A DNA stretch of 64,000 bases from Massilibacillus massiliensis (GTDB lineage Bacteria > Bacillota > Negativicutes > FLKF01): NCBI RefSeq assembly GCF_900086705.1, contig NZ_LT575483.1, positions 1,953,894 to 2,017,893 on the forward strand. Reading direction: 5' to 3'. How positions within the stretch are numbered: the first letter of the stretch is position 1; every line of letters begins with the position of its first letter. Position numbers and translations under genes: made by a program. Positions 1-63,043 of this stretch are shown piece by piece. The notes beneath the pieces were generated by a model that saw nothing but the letters and a program-made list of their open reading frames with translations, made no database searches and was not told the origin of the DNA.

Positions 1-395
<395 letters not shown>

Positions 396-15921: not shown

Positions 15922-16938
15922 TTATAAATTCTCTTCTTTGATAAATTTCGCTAATTTAAATACACTTCGCATAGCTTCCTGATAATTTTCCGGTGTCAGG
16001 GACTGTGGTCCATCTGATAAAGCTTTCGATGGATCTGGATGTACTTCAATCATCAGCCCATCTGCGCCGGCAGCCACCGCCGCCATTGCCATAGGTTTTA
16101 CCATTCTCCATTTTCCTGTACCATGGCTTGGATCCACAATGATTGGCAAATGACTTAAATGCTTCATCGCTGCAATCGCACTTAAATCCAATGTATTGCG
16201 CGTGTATTCTTCATAGGTTCTGATCCCGCGTTCACATAATACAACATTATGATTGCCCTCGCTCAGAATATATTCTGCAGCATGCAGCCATTCGTTGATC
16301 GTCGCAGCAAGACCACGTTTTAATAAAACCGGTTTATCCCCACGGCCAACCTCTTTTAACAAGCTGAAATTCTGCATGTTACGAGCACCAACCTGCAGCA
16401 TATCTGCATATTTGGATACGGTTTCTACCGCTTCAACTTCCGTTACTTCCGTCACGACTTTCAATCCTGTCAATTCTCTGGCTTCTGCTAAAAATTTTAA
16501 ACCTTCTGTTTCAAGCCCCTGAAAAGCATAAGGAGATGTCCGTGGCTTATAGGCCCCACCTCTTAAAAATTGCGCTCCGCCAGCTTTCACAATCTTTGCT
16601 GATTCAAACAATTGCTCTCTGCTTTCAACTGCACACGGGCCTGCCATAACAACCAAGTTGCCACCGCCGATTTTCACACCATCTACGTCAACAATACTAG
16701 GCGCTGGGTGAAATTCCCTGCTGACTAATTTATAACTTTTTGAAATGGCAACGCTTTTTTCAACACCATCCATTGCATCAATTGCAAGCGTTTCCATTAA
16801 ACTCTTATCTCCGATTACTCCAATAATTGTTTTCGACTCCCCTTCGACAACATGCGTTTTTAGACCAATTCCCTGTACTCTTTGAATGACAGTTTTAATT
16901 TGCTTTGCAGTTGCCCCTGCATTCATAATAATTACCAT
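15922..16938 (-). CDS. aroF: 3-deoxy-7-phosphoheptulonate synthase (DAHP synthase)
   Basis: 338 residues. An N-terminal ferredoxin-like domain ([19 protein letters not shown] onward, about 70 residues) precedes a DAHP synthase barrel with [37 protein letters not shown] and [10 protein letters not shown]. It joins phosphoenolpyruvate and erythrose 4-phosphate, the first step to aromatic amino acids. The N-terminal domain is the type that gives feedback control. The start at 16938 has AAGGTGG nine bases upstream. It follows pheA by 29 bases and shares its T-box transcript. Confidence 0.94.
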
Positions 16939-16967: not shown

Positions 16968-17834
16968 CTATTTTTGTTTATCAATTGTTATCACATCAAA
17001 AGAGCCTAGATTTTTTACCCACAAACTCTTTTGCTCAACAGCCGCAAGCGCTGCTTTTACATTGTCCTGATCTGTTGCGCCTTCTAAACTTAAGAAGAAG
17101 ATATATTCACCTAATCCAGTACGTGCTGGTCTAGACTCAATCCGCGTTAAATTGACATTACGTTTCGCAAATTCGAGCAGCACATCACATAGACTTCCGG
17201 CTTTTGCACCTTTGATTTGGCAAATGATCGATGTTTTTTCTTTTCCGTATACACCAGACGCATTCGGCTTGGTAAGCATCAAAAAACGCGTACAGTTCGT
17301 ACGGTTATCCTGAATCTCCGTTGCAACCGTAGTCAATCCATATAACTCCCCTGCTCGTTTGCAGCCGATAACAGCATATCCTTTATAATTCCCTTCAGCA
17401 ACGATTTTAGCCGCTCGTGCAGTGCTTGAAACTGGTTTAATTTCAGCATTTGGATAATGCGTTTTTATATAACTGCGGCATTGCGCAAGCGGTTGTGGAT
17501 GGGAAAGAATCGTGGTAATCTCGTCATCTGTATTTTTTACCATCAATTGATTGTGTACTGCCCAAATAAATTCACGCTCAATCTGTAAGTTCACTTCATG
17601 TACAAGTGTATCTAACGTGATGTTAATAGAACCTTCAATTGAATTTTCTACCGGAACTACACAATAGTCTATTGCTCCATGCTCTACTGCGCAAATCGCA
17701 TCATAAATACTCGCATAGGGCATCAATTGCCAGGCATCATCCGATGCGGCTTTTTCAATATTCAAATACTGCGCTAATTCTTCACTATGCGTACCTTGGG
17801 GGCCGAGAAAACCTAGTGTTTTTCTCTTTTTCAT
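16968..17834 (-). CDS. pheA: Prephenate dehydratase
   Basis: 288 residues. GFLGPQGTHSEELA opens the catalytic domain, VVPVENSIEGSI is the prephenate-binding motif, and the conserved TRF triad appears as NCTRFLML. A C-terminal ACT domain carries GSLCDVLLEFA and LTRIESRPARTGLGEYIFF, the phenylalanine-sensing ESRP motif. It makes phenylpyruvate. The AGGAGG site lies 12 bases before the ATG at 17834; an in-frame TTG one codon upstream is also possible. It is the first gene after the T-box leader. Confidence 0.92.
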   Translation of the reverse strand: MKKRKTLGFLGPQGTHSEELAQYLNIEKAASDDAWQLMPYASIYDAICAVEHGAIDYCVVPVENSIEGSINITLDTLVHEVNLQIEREFIWAVHNQLMVKNTDDEITTILSHPQPLAQCRSYIKTHYPNAEIKPVSSTARAAKIVAEGNYKGYAVIGCKRAGELYGLTTVATEIQDNRTNCTRFLMLTKPNASGVYGKEKTSIICQIKGAKAGSLCDVLLEFAKRNVNLTRIESRPARTGLGEYIFFLSLEGATDQDNVKAALAAVEQKSLWVKNLGSFDVITIDKQK

Positions 17835-17871
17835 CAATGCATTGCGCCTCCTTTCAAAAAGCTTTATAGAA

Positions 17872-18150
17872 ATAAAATAAACCCTCATCCTAATAAAAGG
17901 ACGAGGGTTGAACTCGCGGTACCACCTTAATTATTTGCTATAATAGCAAATCACTTTAAAAGTACGGGCCGTGTTAGCCGATACTCCCCTTCTTGATAAC
18001 GGAAAGGTGCCGACACCGCCTACAATACATTGTTCAGCGGGTAACTCCAAGGCGAACTTCAGCTTACCTTCTTATATCAGGTTCCCAGCATCCCCGACTC
18101 TCTGGAATAATCCAAACTAAGCTTACTTTTCCTCTTCATTGTTTTTTTCT
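17872..18150 (-). ncRNA. T-box leader of the pheA-aroF unit
   Basis: The minus strand carries the conserved antiterminator sequence AAGGTGGTACCGCGAG (17913-17928), followed by the competing terminator AACCCTCGTCC...GGATGAGGGTTT (17878-17909). Upstream lie a long Stem I region and the CCGTTATC segment typical of T-boxes. Uncharged tRNA would stabilise the antiterminator and switch on pheA and aroF. A TTC triplet near 18054 makes phenylalanine the likely specifier, but I could not fold Stem I well enough to be certain. Confidence 0.9.
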
Positions 18151-42267: not shown

Positions 42268-42382
42268 ATATTCTATTTATCCATTATTTCTATGAATTTT
42301 TTTCAATAGTTTATTAAGTGTCAAACTAGCAATCCATAGAAAAAACTTCAATAAAAAATCATGTTTTGCCTACTTTTGCTTG

Positions 42383-42407
42383 CAATCGATAAAAATTGTA
42401 ATATAAT
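42383..42407 (+). promoter_or_regulatory. Promoter of the structured RNA
   Basis: TTGCAA followed by 16 bases and TATAAT gives a good vegetative promoter directly upstream of the structured region. Confidence 0.65.
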
Positions 42408-42413
42408 TAGAAA

Positions 42414-42677
42414 TAGGTGGAAATTAAAAAAGTCGCCGTGTCCCAAGAGTGGTGGAACACTCTTAGGCACGAGCAGGTGTCCGAAGCACCTACACGTAAC
42501 AGCTAACTGTCTACGACGACAATTTATTATACCTTGCTTTTCCTTTTATTACAAGGGAGGCGTCTGTTTGCTCGGTATAATACAATTGAAGTTTTAGCAG
42601 AGGCTTAGCGTCTGCATGCAATCAAGATATAGCACTGCGCATGTGTAGGTTGAATAAACCTTCGCATGCGCTTTTTT
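42414..42677 (+). ncRNA. Unidentified structured RNA or leader with its own terminator
   Basis: About 260 bases carry several compact stems. CGTG.CC (42437-42443) pairs with GGCACG (42466-42471) around AAGAGTG (42445-42451)/CACTCTT (42458-42464). AGGTG (42475-42479) pairs with CACCT (42487-42491). GTCG (42432-42435) pairs with CGAC (42517-42520). TATTATACC (42525-42533) pairs with GGTATAATA (42574-42582) around CCTTG/CAAGG, and GCAGA (597) pairs with TCTGC (615). The last stem GCGCATG (42637-42643)/CATGCGC (42665-42671) precedes six Ts. It matches none of the riboswitch consensus sequences I know (TPP, SAM, cobalamin, c-di-GMP, purine, glycine, ykkC, T-box). It is either a free ncRNA or the sensor of the gene at 42919. 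Confidence 0.65.
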
Positions 42678-42701
42678 AATTTCCCCTGAAACAAACTGTA
42701 T

Positions 42702-42760
42702 GTTGGTTTCTTCTATCTACCTTAGCCAATAGGAGAAACCACATGCAGGATGATGATGGG
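42702..42760 (+). other. Hairpin over a candidate ribosome binding site
   Basis: GGTTTCT near 42706 pairs with AGAAACC (42734-42740), covering an AGGAG that precedes an 8-codon reading frame beginning ATGCAGGATGATGATGG. It may be part of the long leader of the gene at 42919. Confidence 0.35.
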
Positions 42761-42770
42761 GGGATATAAA

Positions 42771-42926
42771 TTGGTATCAGTACAAGCCAGTAAAAATTTG
42801 CAGTCAATGCAGCATACCAGCCTGTGGCGGGGAGCCATCCTCGCCACCGCAAAAGGAAAAAGTTCGCTCTATTTACATAGAACAAGATATGTGTTCTTGG
42901 AAAATAGAGGTTCTATACATGTATAA
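42771..42926 (+). CDS. Possible 51-residue leader ORF
   Basis: A TTG start preceded by GGGGGG opens a 51-codon frame, basic and rich in Ser and Arg (WRGAILATAKGKSSLYLHR in the middle). It ends eight bases inside the next gene. No family is recognised. Overlap with the start of the downstream gene would couple their translation. It could be accidental, as the region also encodes RNA stems. Confidence 0.3.
   Translation: MVSVQASKNLQSMQHTSLWRGAILATAKGKSSLYLHRTRYVFLENRGSIHV
42867..42909 (+). promoter_or_regulatory. Two-tier hairpin enclosing the SD of the 42919 gene
   Basis: CTCTATTT (42867-42874) pairs with AAATAGAG (42902-42909), and inside it AGAACA (42879-42884) pairs with TGTTCT (42892-42897). 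The outer arm contains part of the GAGG binding site, so the hairpin would limit translation of the gene at 42919. Confidence 0.6.
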
Positions 42927-43242
42927 AACCTACCGAACAACAAAAGACACGATTATCGGTGAAGAATCGGAAAATACCGATCTTACAGTTAAATTAATTA
43001 CAGATTTAGATAAGAAAGAATACATGCTGATCAAACAGCAAGATGACGTTACGATCTATAATCTTTCGTTAGTTGGTCGAGTCACTGAAATAGTGGACGA
43101 CGTTTCATTCGAAGAATATAGAGATCTTACCTACGCCAGATTAGACAAAGAACTATTATCACAGGGCATTACCCCCAAGAGAATGCATTCTCTAAAGCTC
43201 TACCGAAAATATATCATGGACAAAAGCACACCTAGCAGTTAA
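42919..43242 (+). CDS. Small hypothetical protein under a long structured leader
   Basis: 107 residues, acidic in the first half and more basic toward the end (DKELLSQGITPKRMHSLKLY). No membrane or signal segment is seen, and no family is recognised. The ATG at 42919 has AGAGG eight bases upstream. The 500 bases before it hold a promoter, a structured RNA with a terminator and a hairpin over the SD, an unusual amount of control for so short a gene. A terminator overlaps its stop codon. Confidence 0.65.
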   Translation: MYKTYRTTKDTIIGEESENTDLTVKLITDLDKKEYMLIKQQDDVTIYNLSLVGRVTEIVDDVSFEEYRDLTYARLDKELLSQGITPKRMHSLKLYRKYIMDKSTPSS

Positions 43243-43262
43243 TCCCTGCTAGGTGCACTTTT
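43229..43262 (+). terminator. Terminator overlapping the stop of the 42919 gene
   Basis: CACCTAGCAG (43229-43238) pairs with CTGCTAGGTG (43246-43255), followed by CACTTTT. The stem's first arm is inside the coding sequence. 43263-43447 shows no gene. Confidence 0.75.
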
Positions 43263-43447: not shown

Positions 43448-44440
43448 TTATATGATAAAATGTTTTTTCATAAAATCTACGCTATAATTTTCTGATTCTT
43501 TTAAGGTTTTTTGCATATCTTTATCGTGCGTAAGTATAACAACATTTTTATCTTCAAATGCATATAAACAATATAATATTAGTAAATCAGCAATATCATT
43601 CGTTTTTAACTTTGCATCTGAATAAAATGTTTGTATTACTTTTTTCATAAAATGGTTTAATGTTATATCCATATTTTTAAAAATAGGTTCATTTTCTAAA
43701 TGCATTTTTAAAAATAGTAAATTGTTTTTTAGTGCATTTTTATACTTCGAATTTTTGAAAACAGAGCATCTATTTTTTTTATTACTAATCCATAAAAATA
43801 AATCGTCTTGCTCTGGTAAGTTAATAGTATTGGAATTACCTAAATAAAACTTACATAATAGAATTAGTGTAAACCGCTTAATATCTGAATCGAATGCGGC
43901 TTTTACTATTTTTTTAGCCGATCTATCTTGATATCCATTTATATATAAATTTCTATACCTACTTACAAAAAAATTTGGGTTTTTTGTTAATTTTTCTTTA
44001 AAAAATTCACGAATTTTTATTGATTGGTTTATACATGTTGAATTAGTATCAATTATACAAAAAAGGATAATTGATAAAATTGAGTAAAAAATTTGAGCTG
44101 TAAATTCAGCTTCAATTTTAATTTTTCTTACTTGAATATTATCAATTAGATCAGAAATTTCATCTAGACTTGTACTGTTTTTAATAAAGTCTATTTCTTC
44201 ATTTTCTATAGATAAATTACTTGTATTAATATATGAGAAATCTTTATCAATACTATCAAAAACTGTTTTTATGACTTTAAAATTTTTTCTAAAATAAATA
44301 ACTACTTCAGCTACCGTTACAGATGTCAAATAGGAGTCATAATTTTGTACAATTTCTTTGAGTTTAAGTTTTTGTACAGTATTTTCTCTTAGCTCTAAGT
44401 AATTATAGAACATATTTGTATCAAAAATTATCTTTTCCAT
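43448..44440 (-). CDS. PIN-like domain protein
   Basis: 330 residues, very AT-rich codon use. A PIN nuclease pattern is visible: DTNMFYNYLE at the N terminus, an acidic residue in VTVAEVV, then much later TNDIADLLILY and ILTHDKDM. A long middle insertion of about 150 residues contains a hydrophobic run (FYSILSIILFCIID) that may be a membrane segment. PIN proteins cut RNA, often as toxins, but no antitoxin gene is adjacent. The start follows GGAAGGG. The accessory setting suggests a defence or toxin role; this is inference. Confidence 0.55.
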   Translation of the reverse strand: MEKIIFDTNMFYNYLELRENTVQKLKLKEIVQNYDSYLTSVTVAEVVIYFRKNFKVIKTVFDSIDKDFSYINTSNLSIENEEIDFIKNSTSLDEISDLIDNIQVRKIKIEAEFTAQIFYSILSIILFCIIDTNSTCINQSIKIREFFKEKLTKNPNFFVSRYRNLYINGYQDRSAKKIVKAAFDSDIKRFTLILLCKFYLGNSNTINLPEQDDLFLWISNKKNRCSVFKNSKYKNALKNNLLFLKMHLENEPIFKNMDITLNHFMKKVIQTFYSDAKLKTNDIADLLILYCLYAFEDKNVVILTHDKDMQKTLKESENYSVDFMKKHFII

Positions 44441-44776
44441 GTTACCCTTCCAAGTTTTTATTCAAATAAATGTTATTGAAAAACTCAGTCATCATTTATA
44501 AAGTTCTCCAATGCTCTGTTAAGAATCCAAAGGAATGTATACCTTTTCCTCAAAAACTATCAAAATAAAATTTAATCCATGTAAACAAACTAATAATTAA
44601 AAAGTAACCCTAATTTCTAAAAAAAATAAATTTTTATGTATTTTATTGTTATATTCTTGAATCGACAATAGACAAAGGAACTTTTACATTGTCTACTGCT
44701 TCTATTCACGAATAGTTAGTTAAAATAAAAAGTCTAGGTTCGCTTCATATCATGAACCTAGACTTTTTCATAAGAT
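44441..44776. terminator. Intergenic region with the terminator of the 44777 gene
   Basis: A perfect 15-base stem, AAAAAGTCTAGGTTC at 44727-44741 with its complement at 44754-44768, gives a T-run terminator on the minus strand for the gene ending at 44777. The remaining sequence to 44440 is AT-rich, with a weak partial palindrome around 44650-44720 and no gene. Confidence 0.7.
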
Positions 44777-45736
44777 TTACGATACTTTTGATATCTTTTT
44801 ATATACAATATTATCTAATTGTTCATTCGTTAAACATAATTCTAATAAAAGTGATTTTTTTATCATACGTTTTCTGAATTGAAGTAATGAATTTGGATTC
44901 TTGCGTGAATAATCTTCTACATATTGTTTATGAGGAGTTCCTCTTACTTCGTCTTCGTATATAGCTTTTTTCGATGGCTTTTCATAATACATATTTCCAA
45001 ATTTATCTTGTTTAATTTTCGCTAAGCTAGTTTTATTGGCTTGATGATAATCCTGTCTCTCAACTAAAATTTTTTGTTGAAGGTATTCTCTTACAGAATA
45101 AGCAAATCTTTGACGAACAAAAAATTTAGGTACTAACATTAATGTTATGTTACCTGCTTTCAATGGATATTCTTCTAATAAATTCCACGAAAGGGTATCT
45201 TTATCCCAATAACTACCAATAATTTCTTTTTTACTCTCAAGGGCAATTTTATGTTTGCAACATTGAGCCTTAGTAAATTGATAAAGTTCTTTTCTAAGAA
45301 TATTTGTTATCAAGTCCGACATTCTATCTTCCGCAAAATTATCAATAAAAAGACTTAGATCCTTGTGACTTTTAACAAGACCATCCGAAATTAGATTTTT
45401 TTCATATACTTGTTTAAAAATTTTGTGTAAAATGTCCGAAGATGCTCCTTTACCACTTGACTGTTTGCGAGAAAGACCTAATTTAGTTTCATTTGGTTCA
45501 TGTCCGAAATCAAGTAGTGCTTGAAGTCCGTTATCATCATTAGTTTTGCAACATTCGAATACACGGTTAAAAAAACTATTTAGAACTATTGTACAGTGTC
45601 TTGAAAAAATATCGTTTGAACATTCTATGAGCAATGGATCTATGAATAATTTAGTATCTGTTTTTAAGTTAACATCTACGAAGTCAATATCCTCATGTCC
45701 GTTGATTTTAAGATTAATATACTTACTAAAGTGCAT
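44777..45736 (-). CDS. Hypothetical protein of the accessory region
   Basis: 319 residues, soluble, rich in Lys and Asp. It opens MHFSKYINLKINGHEDIDF with an early TKLFIDPLLIE stretch, and has a basic middle (KHKIALESKKE) and a Lys/Arg-rich C terminus (RKNPNSLLQFRKRMIKK). No catalytic motif is recognised. It is a single gene with its own terminator, between a PIN-like gene and an ATPase pair, all on the minus strand and similarly AT-rich. Linked defence functions are possible but unproven. Confidence 0.6.
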   Translation of the reverse strand: MHFSKYINLKINGHEDIDFVDVNLKTDTKLFIDPLLIECSNDIFSRHCTIVLNSFFNRVFECCKTNDDNGLQALLDFGHEPNETKLGLSRKQSSGKGASSDILHKIFKQVYEKNLISDGLVKSHKDLSLFIDNFAEDRMSDLITNILRKELYQFTKAQCCKHKIALESKKEIIGSYWDKDTLSWNLLEEYPLKAGNITLMLVPKFFVRQRFAYSVREYLQQKILVERQDYHQANKTSLAKIKQDKFGNMYYEKPSKKAIYEDEVRGTPHKQYVEDYSRKNPNSLLQFRKRMIKKSLLLELCLTNEQLDNIVYKKISKVS

Positions 45737-45792
45737 CTAATAATTCCTCCTTAAAATTGTAAAAATAGATATGCTATCTTTAACCTTGATTT

Positions 45793-45849
45793 TTTTTGAG
45801 AGTATGATACACTATGAGTGGTATATATCATAGTGAGTATTCTCAAAAA
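45793..45849. repeat. Interrupted inverted repeat upstream of the 44777 gene
   Basis: TTTTTGAGA (45793-45801) and TCTCAAAAA (45841-45849) enclose ACTATGA (45811-45817) and TCATAGT (45828-45834). It lies about 60-110 bases upstream of the start codon, where an operator or a leader stem would be. Confidence 0.45.
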
Positions 45850-45872
45850 TTGAATTGATTGAGTTGGTATCC

Positions 45873-45917
45873 AGATAAGCACTAATATTTGCTGTATTAG
45901 TGCTTATCTTATTTTTT
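45873..45917 (+). terminator. Plus-strand terminator-like hairpin
   Basis: AGATAAGCACTAATA pairs perfectly with its complement across 7 bases and is followed on the plus strand by TATTTTTT. All neighbouring genes run on the minus strand, so any RNA it ends would be antisense. Confidence 0.5.
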
Positions 45918-45989
45918 AAGTAAATACACCATAACACCTCCTTTAGGTTTTGATATCTATATTAAACTGTAGTAAACACCACAGGAATA

Positions 45990-46340
45990 TTAAAAAGCTT
46001 TTAATTGATTTAACCAGGCTTCGAATTTTGTAATATTAGAAAAGCATTCAATCATAATTTTACTACTTCTTACAGTTTCAGATTGATTTGACGATATAAC
46101 ACAAATCTTATCTAAGTGCCTATCATAATTATGATAGGCAGTATTAATTTTTCGTAATATTTCACTATTGGTAAGAGGCGAATGATGAACGTAATCCTTC
46201 ATCAACCAACAATTATGTATATTAGCAAGTTCATGTGCCATAATCCTTAAACGTGGACCTATAACTAAATCATCGTAAAAAATATATATGAATTTTGATA
46301 ATTTACGCTGTGGCAAATTACGTTTGCAACGGTTATTCAT
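45990..46340 (-). CDS. Small hypothetical partner of the AAA ATPase
   Basis: 116 residues starting MNNRCKRNLPQRK, basic at the N terminus, with a central KDYVHHSPLTNSEI and a C-terminal ICVISSNQSETVRSSKI. No family is recognised. It starts six bases after the ATPase stop, behind GAGGT within the ATPase's last codons, so translation is coupled. ATPases of this type in defence loci usually travel with a second effector gene. This protein is short for the known Toprim or RloB-like partners and could be a new or shortened effector. Confidence 0.6.
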   Translation of the reverse strand: MNNRCKRNLPQRKLSKFIYIFYDDLVIGPRLRIMAHELANIHNCWLMKDYVHHSPLTNSEILRKINTAYHNYDRHLDKICVISSNQSETVRSSKIMIECFSNITKFEAWLNQLKAF

Positions 46341-46345
46341 AATCT

Positions 46346-47695
46346 TTATACCTCTTCGAAATTTGGAATTGCATTATATCTACCCATTAAGTAAGATTTA
46401 TCTATTTTCTTATCAAATCGTTCATTAAATTGTTCTAAAGAATATATTTCAGATTCATGATTTACATTTTTATTTACAAACCAAATTTCATCACGTCTTA
46501 ATAAATCGAGGTTAAGTAATCGAGATTCATGTGTAGTTACAATTAGTTGTATATTCTTTTTTCCTAATGAATTAAGATATAAGTCAATAAATTTATATGT
46601 TAAATTCGGGTGAAGACTTCTATCAATTTCATCTATTACATATACTTTGTTGTTATTTTCTGTAAATAATATTTCAGCGAGTTCTAAAATTCGTCTTGTC
46701 CCATCCGATTCTTCACATATATTGAATGATCCATGGGAACCGTGCTCAAACTCAATAGTTTTTGTTGTAATATTGAAATTTTCATCTATCTCAAATATAT
46801 AAAAATCTCTATTTCCTCTTATAACAAATCCTGATTTTAAATGAGGATTTGTTTCTTTTTTTGAACGCACAATTTTTTTTTCTATATCATCATGGACTTT
46901 TTTTAATATTTTATCTGGTATAGAATTGGCAATTTCCTCTGGTTTAGCATCAATAATTTTAAAGTTAGTTATACCAGTACTAAATTTAGCAATTGCATTA
47001 CATATTTCTTCAGTATTAGAATTAGTCATAAAATAGGAATAATTTGAGAATGGACTGTCAGGATAATTAATATCCAGCTCATGCTTAAACCAATTATAAA
47101 TTTTTTTGAAGATAATTAATTCTGAATTTGTTTTATATAATTCAGATTTATCTCTATTCATAACGCTCAAAAATAATGTAGATTCATCTGTTTTAATATC
47201 ATCAAAATATATATGTATGCGATTAACAATATCTTCTTTTTTTAAATATTTACCAATTGAATGATTATTTTCTAATAAATTTCTAGTGAATATAGTAATT
47301 AAATTATTTTGATTTACTTCATGCAACCATTCTTTTGTAATGCTATTTTCGCTAAGTAAAATTTCAAAACCGTAATTATAAAATTGATTATCTATTTTAA
47401 TTTCAAATTCAAAATGACTAACTTTGTTTTTATTTTGTTCCGTCGTTCTATTATATTTTTGAATAAATCCTTTTGGAATTCCATTAATAATCACTTGCTT
47501 AGCAAAATCTAGCGCATTGATAAAATTGGATTTACCAGAAGCATTCGCTCCATATAAGGCACTAAATCTTAACATCTTTATTTTCTTGCTAATTAATAAA
47601 TGTTCACGGTGGCCTCTAACCTTCCCTGCAACCATATTAAATTCTTGTATTGATCCGAACGACATAAAATTTCCAATTAACACCTTTATAAGCAT
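46346..47695 (-). CDS. AAA_15/RloA-type ATPase
   Basis: 449 residues. Walker A is LYGANASGKSNFINAL near residue 50, the signature-like ESDGTRRILELAEIL is near 330, Walker B is VYVIDEIDRSLHP near 355, and an H-loop follows as VTTHESRLLNL. A long insertion between A and the signature is typical of SMC/OLD-like ABC-type ATPases used in phage-defence systems such as RloA, AbiL and retron-linked ATPases. Codon use is strongly AT-biased, unlike the core genes. It is first of a two-gene unit with the 116-residue protein. Confidence 0.8.
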   Translation of the reverse strand: MLIKVLIGNFMSFGSIQEFNMVAGKVRGHREHLLISKKIKMLRFSALYGANASGKSNFINALDFAKQVIINGIPKGFIQKYNRTTEQNKNKVSHFEFEIKIDNQFYNYGFEILLSENSITKEWLHEVNQNNLITIFTRNLLENNHSIGKYLKKEDIVNRIHIYFDDIKTDESTLFLSVMNRDKSELYKTNSELIIFKKIYNWFKHELDINYPDSPFSNYSYFMTNSNTEEICNAIAKFSTGITNFKIIDAKPEEIANSIPDKILKKVHDDIEKKIVRSKKETNPHLKSGFVIRGNRDFYIFEIDENFNITTKTIEFEHGSHGSFNICEESDGTRRILELAEILFTENNNKVYVIDEIDRSLHPNLTYKFIDLYLNSLGKKNIQLIVTTHESRLLNLDLLRRDEIWFVNKNVNHESEIYSLEQFNERFDKKIDKSYLMGRYNAIPNFEEV

Positions 47696-62141: not shown

Positions 62142-63043
62142 TTTATACAGTAACTTTTAATCCATCTCTGGATTACATCGTAAAATTGGATACTTTTACA
62201 CCAGGTGCAGTCAATCGCACAAAAACAGAGATGATTTATTGTGGTGGCAAAGGAATTAACGTCTCTATCGTATTAAAAAATCTTGGTTTTACTAGCAAAG
62301 CACTTGGTTTTATCGCTGGTTTTACCGGTCAGGAAGTAAAGAAACGTTTGCAGCAACTTGGTTGTGAAAGTGATTTTATTGAACTCGATCAAGGTCTTTC
62401 TCGCATCAATGTAAAAATTAAAGCCGAAGCAGAAAGTGAAATCAACGGGCAAGGTCCTTTTATCGATGCAATTGCCTTACAAGCATTATTTACGAAATTA
62501 GATCATTTATCCGCCGGCGATATATTGGTACTCGCCGGCAGTATTCCAAGTACGCTCCCAAATGATATTTACGAAAAAATCATGGCAAAACTCATGAAAA
62601 AAGATGTGCATATCATTGTCGATGCGACTTGCTCTTTATTATTAAATGTTTTAAAATACAAACCTTTCTTAATCAAACCCAATCATCACGAATTGGGTGA
62701 AATGTTTGGCGTAACGCTAAACAACGACGAAGAAATCATCACTTACGCTAAAAAGCTGCAAGATCTTGGCGCACAAAATGTACTCATATCGATGGCCGGG
62801 GATGGAGCGATCCTCCTGACAAACAAGCAGGATGTTTATAAAAGCCAAGCTCCTAAAGGTAAAGTGATCAATTCCGTCGGCGCAGGTGATTCAATGGTGG
62901 CAGGCTTCTTAGCTGGCTATTTAGACAGCGGCGATTTGCAAAAAGCTTTTAAAATGGGCATAGCAACTGGCAGCGCAAGTGCCTTTTCAGAAGAGTTAGC
63001 AACAAAAGCCGAAGTTGAAAAACTTTTTAATGCTTTATTATAA
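62138..63043 (+). CDS. fruK: 1-phosphofructokinase
   Basis: 301 residues of the PfkB family: TFNPSLDYIVKLDTF, CGGKGINVSIVLKNLG, and the C-terminal INSVGAGDSMVAGFL with catalytic Asp. It phosphorylates fructose 1-phosphate made by the PTS to fructose 1,6-bisphosphate. The start overlaps the fruR stop as ATGA. fruA follows 13 bases on. Confidence 0.93.
   Translation: MIYTVTFNPSLDYIVKLDTFTPGAVNRTKTEMIYCGGKGINVSIVLKNLGFTSKALGFIAGFTGQEVKKRLQQLGCESDFIELDQGLSRINVKIKAEAESEINGQGPFIDAIALQALFTKLDHLSAGDILVLAGSIPSTLPNDIYEKIMAKLMKKDVHIIVDATCSLLLNVLKYKPFLIKPNHHELGEMFGVTLNNDEEIITYAKKLQDLGAQNVLISMAGDGAILLTNKQDVYKSQAPKGKVINSVGAGDSMVAGFLAGYLDSGDLQKAFKMGIATGSASAFSEELATKAEVEKLFNALL

Follow-up and report, generated by a model that had tools for sequence, protein, structure and literature searches.

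The leader and its small genes

The window analysed here, a stretch of 64,000 nucleotides from Massilibacillus massiliensis, carries on its plus strand a promoter at 42380-42407 (-35 box TTGCAA at 42380-42385, 16-nt spacer, -10 box TATAAT at 42402-42407), from which a leader RNA is predicted to extend over 42414-42677, its start being inferred from the -10 box and its 3' end being the U-run of a terminator-like hairpin. The promoter is kept across a family of related elements, the columns of the -35 box being conserved at 85-97% and those of the -10 box at 82-100%, with a spacer of 16 nt in 72 of 95 elements. A sequence-only reading of this locus had described a structured RNA of no recognised family, preceded by a good promoter, held together by long-range pairs and closed by a final T-run terminator, and this description was borne out. 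The minimum free energy of 42383-42677 is -91.7 kcal/mol against -68.9 +/- 5.2 kcal/mol for shuffled sequences (z = -4.4; 0 of 200 shuffles as good). Two long-range pairings join 42488-42497 to 42641-42650 (10 nt) and 42415-42432 to 42671-42687 (17 pairs), and the 9-bp stem near 42522-42582 is local. A hairpin with a bulge at 42637-42671, absent from the listing of a simple terminator scan, runs into a U-run at 42672-42677. A scan against Rfam returned no family at gathering score for this locus.

Behind the leader lie two overlapping ORFs on the plus strand: A1 (42771-42926), which encodes 51 aa from a TTG start and is preceded by a GGGGGG Shine-Dalgarno sequence (42758-42763), and A2 (42919-43242), which encodes 107 aa. 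An intrinsic terminator detected by the terminator scan (43229-43255) ends the unit. The RNA had been taken either for a standalone noncoding RNA or for the regulatory leader of the gene at 42919; the second reading is the most likely and the idea of downstream control survives, with the correction that the first gene under control would be A1. Neither ORF matched a family in Pfam or NCBIfam, nor did A1 in PHROG, and the AlphaFold model of A2 (mean pLDDT 56.8, pTM 0.32) was too poor for a fold search.

The genes behind other copies of the element are varied. In the genomes checked, A2 was met with only beside the element: G000, G023, G055 and G004 together have 11 intact A2 genes, each of which adjoins a copy. 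A SymE toxin gene (PF08845, 42.8 bits, cut-off 29) lies downstream in 17 of 116 elements, and all seven SymE genes of two genomes (G018 and G011) adjoin one. Other copies precede DUF6809-like ORFs (PF20648, 27.7 bits, cut-off 27), a family also encountered away from elements (at 3083415 in G000 and at 62771 in G011:C3), and the remainder precede the A1/A2 pair, a family termed C, a short Desulfosporosinus family and further small ORFs without a Pfam match. In genome G082 the majority of ORFs downstream have in common a motif like LNEAFDQYVFTRVDxIL behind variable N-terminal extensions, and constitute a large paralogous family, each member with its own switch. In two copies (L095 and L167) the gene directly behind the element is not small but a long ORF resembling a regulator (522 aa in the case of L095), a hint that other kinds of gene can acquire the cassette.

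A probable antisense RNA opposite the leader

Examination of relatives of the element revealed strong conservation, and the covarying structure in the 5' half of the leader proved to be that of the opposite strand. Conservation per column across 116 elements is 100% at 42526-42532 and 97-100% at 42551-42555, with a variable stretch between, and on the minus strand these two blocks read as TATAAT and as the TTGT of a -35 box. They belong to a putative antisense promoter on the minus strand (42554-42526; -35 box TTGTAA at 42554-42549, 17-nt spacer, -10 box TATAAT at 42531-42526), whose hexamers are conserved and whose spacer is variable in sequence and fixed in length. The TATAAT is invariant (121 of 121 elements), the best -35 box stands at 17 nt from it in 107 of these, and in G082 the distance is 17 or 18 nt in most copies. 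The sequence-only reading had overlooked this promoter, though it was detected in the promoter scan, and its presence accounts for the conserved half of the locus. It also bears on the 9-bp stem at 42522-42582, which we considered as a conserved sense structure and rejected: its 5' side is the antisense -10 box, and the 3' partner differs between copies.

The RNA expected from this promoter (42521 to about 42426, minus strand) is about 95 nt long and complementary to the first ~110 nt of the sense leader. It is predicted to form a three-way junction (-44.3 kcal/mol) with two hairpins, P2 (42437-42471, apical loop 42452-42457) and P3 (42475-42491, loop 42480-42486), and with a closing stem GUCGUCGU/ACGGCGAC that runs directly into UUUUUU, as in the self-terminated RNAs of antisense attenuators. 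In an alignment of 30 diverse copies, 99.0% of 869 cells are paired on the antisense strand, with 36 double-change cells, a result that none of 500 shuffles reached, and sliding the structure along the alignment reduced pairing to 32-49%. The strands differ sharply: 860 of the 869 cells keep their pairs when read as antisense against 733 when read as sense, and the cells contain 129 wobble G-U pairs in the antisense reading but only 2 in the sense reading. Hairpin P2, taken by itself across 116 elements, has 87 cells that read A-C as sense, and hence G-U as antisense, against 5 that read G-U as sense. For all five copies of the genome, a covariance model gives 104-113 bits when the strand read is the antisense one and 29-37 bits when it is the sense one, the window's own copy scoring 113 against 31 bits. 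Comparative sequence analysis thus gives good support for assigning the conserved and covarying 5' structure to an RNA read from the opposite strand, and we consider it highly likely that such an RNA is made and folded as described.

This asymmetry led us to set aside a standalone sense noncoding RNA, and with it a riboswitch. An orphan riboswitch or other ligand sensor in the sense leader, controlling both transcription and translation of the small genes, would suit a leader that is large, conserved and able to take up either of two mutually exclusive folds, and the many unrelated genes downstream are also what riboswitches display. However, the pairing of the conserved domain is kept on the antisense rather than the sense strand, a perfect minus-strand promoter bounds the conserved block, and the loops are hypervariable, unlike a conserved binding pocket; we regard a ligand sensor as highly improbable.

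The antisense RNA is predicted to overlap the mRNA of small proteins, as is the case in type I toxin-antitoxin systems. As for known toxins, SymE is present in the 17 of 116 elements noted above, the window's A1 and A2 match nothing, and toxin relatives account for no more than a part of the genes downstream; the products may nevertheless be toxic.

Predicted pairings in the leader and two putative locks

A segment at the very start of the leader, T2 (AGGUGGAAAUUAAAAAAG, 42415-42432), whose complement forms the tail of the antisense RNA together with its U-run, is the 5' arm of a long-range helix, P0, and is complementary over 17 pairs to the tail M2 (CUUUUUUAAUUUCCCCU, 42671-42687), including its U-run and CCCC. 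Compensated variants of the two arms are found in several copies, namely, GGAAAUCGAAAG with CUUUCGAUUUUCC in L071, GGGAAUUUAAAAG with CUUUUAAAUUCCC in L051, and further examples in L072, L060 and L126, and several variant arms fit their own tail no better than the tails of other copies. On average, an arm pairs with its own tail at -18.7 kcal/mol versus -16.4 (sd 0.16) with swapped tails, values uncorrected for relatedness. The CCCC of the tail (42683-42686) can pair instead with the GGGGGG Shine-Dalgarno sequence when the 5' region is masked; this second helix also favors its own partner (-12.2 versus -11.3 with swapped partners, sd 0.14), and in L048 a tail change to CCCUC is matched by a GAGGG Shine-Dalgarno sequence. 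Over 90 elements the mean computed probability that the Shine-Dalgarno sequence is unpaired is 0.27 in the free leader, 0.05 with the antisense region masked and 0.22 with a control mask, and in the window it drops from 0.81 to 0.04 upon antisense masking. Given this complementarity, and the hiding of the Shine-Dalgarno sequence under the mask, T2 and the Shine-Dalgarno sequence appear to compete for one and the same CCCC. We propose that sequestration of the Shine-Dalgarno sequence is probably one lock on the downstream genes, the change in accessibility being a computed one.

A further segment, T1 (ACCUACACGU, 42488-42497), is a candidate pre-emptor or antiterminator: it is complementary over 10 nt to M1 (AUGUGUAGGU, 42641-42650), which lies in the 5' arm of the terminator-like hairpin (42637-42677 with its U-run). 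Both segments are nearly invariant across 116 elements, and the pairing is therefore one of conservation without covariation. The hairpin itself shows a wobble bias opposite to that of the antisense region (190 sense G-U against 4 A-C across the family), which indicates that it works in the sense RNA. Its U-run is present in most copies and weak or broken in some (those of genome G018, and L048 and L089), and these would be expected to terminate poorly. Folding does not favor T1 at equilibrium: T1:M1 is in the predicted best fold only of a nascent RNA ending at 42650, and is lost once more of the hairpin is made; in an RNA reaching 42671 the finished terminator is computed at -90.2 against -76.8 kcal/mol for T1:M1, and the terminator forms with or without the antisense mask (12.4 versus 12.7 expected pairs). 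Since the finished terminator wins at equilibrium, antitermination by T1:M1 would need kinetic control. Transcription attenuation through T1:M1 may be a second lock besides the sequestration of the Shine-Dalgarno sequence, an idea that we favor only slightly and that is the weakest step of the mechanism, the terminator being always formed at equilibrium and some U-runs being poor.

Taking these features together, we propose, with a probability of roughly 0.8, that the element is a cis-acting antisense-RNA switch of the pT181/pIP501 type placed over a small operon. The sense promoter at 42380-42407 would transcribe the leader of about 260 nt and then the operon at 42771-43242, and the convergent promoter at 42554-42526 would produce the antisense RNA. 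When the latter is absent, T1 would hold M1, the 5' arm of the terminator, and P0 would keep the CCCC away from the GGGGGG Shine-Dalgarno sequence, leaving the operon on. When it is present, it would pair with the leader first through the two hypervariable loops and then along its full length, taking up T1 and T2, whereupon the terminator would form, and any mRNA that reads through would have its Shine-Dalgarno sequence inside the CCCC:GGGGGG helix. Any drop of antisense RNA relative to leader would suffice to turn the operon on. That the antisense RNA represses the downstream operon in cis is very likely.

One possibility is that the antisense RNA acts on translation and mRNA stability only, in the manner of SymE/SymR or hok/sok, and that the hairpin is structural or a constitutive partial terminator. 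Indeed, if transcription attenuation is dropped, a translational antisense RNA of the SymR kind is what remains. The Shine-Dalgarno helix and P0 are better backed than T1:M1, the terminator is predicted to form regardless of the antisense RNA, some copies lack a good U-run, and SymR is known to affect translation more than mRNA level (PMC1891008). However, such a purely translational switch leaves unexplained both the nearly invariant terminator 5' arm complementary to an invariant T1 and the presence in most copies of a terminator-shaped hairpin with a U-run, and we consider it unlikely.

In one copy (L077) a group II intron (RF02003, 81.5 bits; 151-288, minus strand) lies beside the element (321-602). 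It starts right after the tail AATTTC and parts the element from its gene. As some group II introns insert after terminators, this position would fit the terminator-like hairpin.

Dispersal, loop diversity and kindred systems

The genome of the window holds five copies of the element, 83-89% identical in a DNA search; the element being thus dispersed around the genome, the position of this copy at the edge of an accessory region, to which the sequence-only reading had drawn attention, is incidental. When 60 genomes of the class were searched at the DNA level, 17 had copies, one of them as many as 13, and a covariance model of the conserved domain recovered them in 30 of 250 genomes of the class and 15 of 91 genera. 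Of the genomes examined in full, G082 has the most copies, 24 strong and one weak; some anaerobic bacteria carry up to about this number. A pattern scan of named genomes recovered the element in Pelosinus, Sporomusa, Propionispora, Propionispira, Anaerospora and Massilibacillus (Negativicutes where looked up) and also reached Desulfosporosinus, which belongs to another class. When hits with E up to 10 were admitted, Rfam added only microRNA models, all far short of their thresholds, and one bacterial family, rli48 (RF01479); the latter scored 26 bits over 42577-42702, against a gathering score of 100 bits, and is treated as a chance match. A targeted search of the open-licence literature found no paper describing the element, which is in no RNA database searched; it resembles antisense attenuators in its proposed working and type I modules in part, a likeness of mechanism rather than demonstrated homology.

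Its multicopy dispersal, its complementary ends and one copy on a contig of a viral collection could be those of a mobile element whose folding is incidental. This last copy, which is of the SymE type, adds nothing on origin; neither a transposase nor a target duplication was noticed in the neighborhoods read, the conserved promoter sits outside P0, and blastn gave no match to the element in a phage collection or in a collection of 72,556 plasmids. We therefore see next to no likelihood in this explanation.

Across 116 elements, variability within the antisense region is greatest in the P2 and P3 loops. Co-resident copies never share a loop combination (0 of 157 within-genome pairs), and those of G082 are all distinct (24 of 24). 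Pairs of copies in which the rest of the antisense region and the tail are 95-100% identical have only about 60% of loop letters in common, close to the 49% of random pairs, and loops differ even where the flanks are 99.5% identical. It is conceivable that the minus-strand RNA acts in trans as a small RNA, many copies serving one regulon, and that its gene merely overlaps the leaders, as an invariant core present as many as 24-25 times in one genome might suggest; yet loops that differ in every co-resident copy are contrary to redundant small-RNA genes, and full complementarity to the RNA's own leader and constant linkage to a small operon also speak for the cis-acting switch, making a trans-acting role improbable. 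Co-resident copies might be expected to avoid one another's loops more than copies of separate genomes do, but this was not supported, loops being no more different within genomes than between them. The comparisons support fast loop variation everywhere, and since divergence between genomes is equal, this fits antisense specificity without being proof of cross-talk avoidance. The variation suggests that each copy may have its own, loop-determined specificity. Such specificity is established for FinP; in attenuators of the pT181 type it is partial, and engineered pT181 variants required changes in both loop and stem.

The P2 loops of L048 and L089, GTGAGA and TCTCAC, are exact reverse complements of each other between flanks that are 98% identical. 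Among 58 distinct P2 loops, 20 have their reverse complement in other copies (column-shuffle expectation 11, maximum 22), and no such excess was seen among these loops for the plain reverse or the plain complement. This is suggestive of an inversion of the loop between the arms of its stem.

Several parallels are offered by known systems. In the antisense attenuators of pT181 (repC) and pIP501 (repR/RNAIII, 136 nt), for which dual control of transcription and translation has been proposed in the case of pT181 (PMC4981023; PMC5435934), a convergent antisense promoter likewise lies inside a long leader and produces a structured RNA with loop-based recognition, and a pre-emptor segment is complementary to the terminator 5' arm, the candidate counterpart here being T1:M1. 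Unlike these, the element is chromosomal, has many copies per genome and precedes varied small genes instead of a replication initiator; no Cop protein gene was noticed near it, the downstream genes are not Rep, and no plasmid matched by blastn. Its second lock would be a separate Shine-Dalgarno helix with P0 as competitor, not a Shine-Dalgarno sequence within the terminator. SymE/SymR of Escherichia coli resembles it in that a small operon is faced at its 5' end by an antisense RNA acting in cis, and some copies of the element would control a gene of the SymE family itself. In E. coli, however, symR is transcribed from a promoter within the symE coding sequence and its product has two hairpins (PMC1891008). 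The antisense promoter of the element is placed instead in a long leader that is untranslated and carries a terminator-like hairpin, the predicted RNA is a three-way junction, and most copies, the window's included, precede other gene families. The long-range pairing of the 5' and 3' parts of the mRNA, linked to Shine-Dalgarno access, is shared with hok/sok; in hok/sok and related type I systems such pairing decides access to the Shine-Dalgarno sequence. P0 differs in that it is predicted to free rather than to hide the Shine-Dalgarno sequence, and the window locus encodes no hydrophobic peptide of the hok type.

We tentatively suggest, at slightly less than even odds, that these elements represent a new class of chromosomal antisense-attenuator cassettes, in which one module, present in up to 24-25 co-resident copies with their own loop codes, is placed over small, possibly toxic genes of unrelated families, thereby providing mutually orthogonal switches in which specificity evolves much more quickly than the stems do, loop inversion being one possible route. 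The natural chromosomal family has well over 100 sequenced members with two apparent locks and hypervariable recognition loops, and might serve as a natural data set on cross-talk avoidance among paralogous antisense systems. It also places SymE-family genes in a new context and provides the first functional leads on DUF6809 and on three or more nameless families of small proteins.

Beside the window's copy, accessory genes on the minus strand (43448-47695) are probably a defence island: 46346-47695 encodes an AbiEii/AbiL-like AAA ATPase (PF13304, 102.6 bits; PADLOC AbiLi), 44777-45736 matches PADLOC PDC-M36A, and the other two genes gave no match. Elsewhere in the window, a T-box leader (17894-18148, minus strand; RF00230, 145.8 bits) lies just upstream of 16968-17888 and 15922-16938, which, from reading by eye, we take to be genes for prephenate dehydratase and DAHP synthase.
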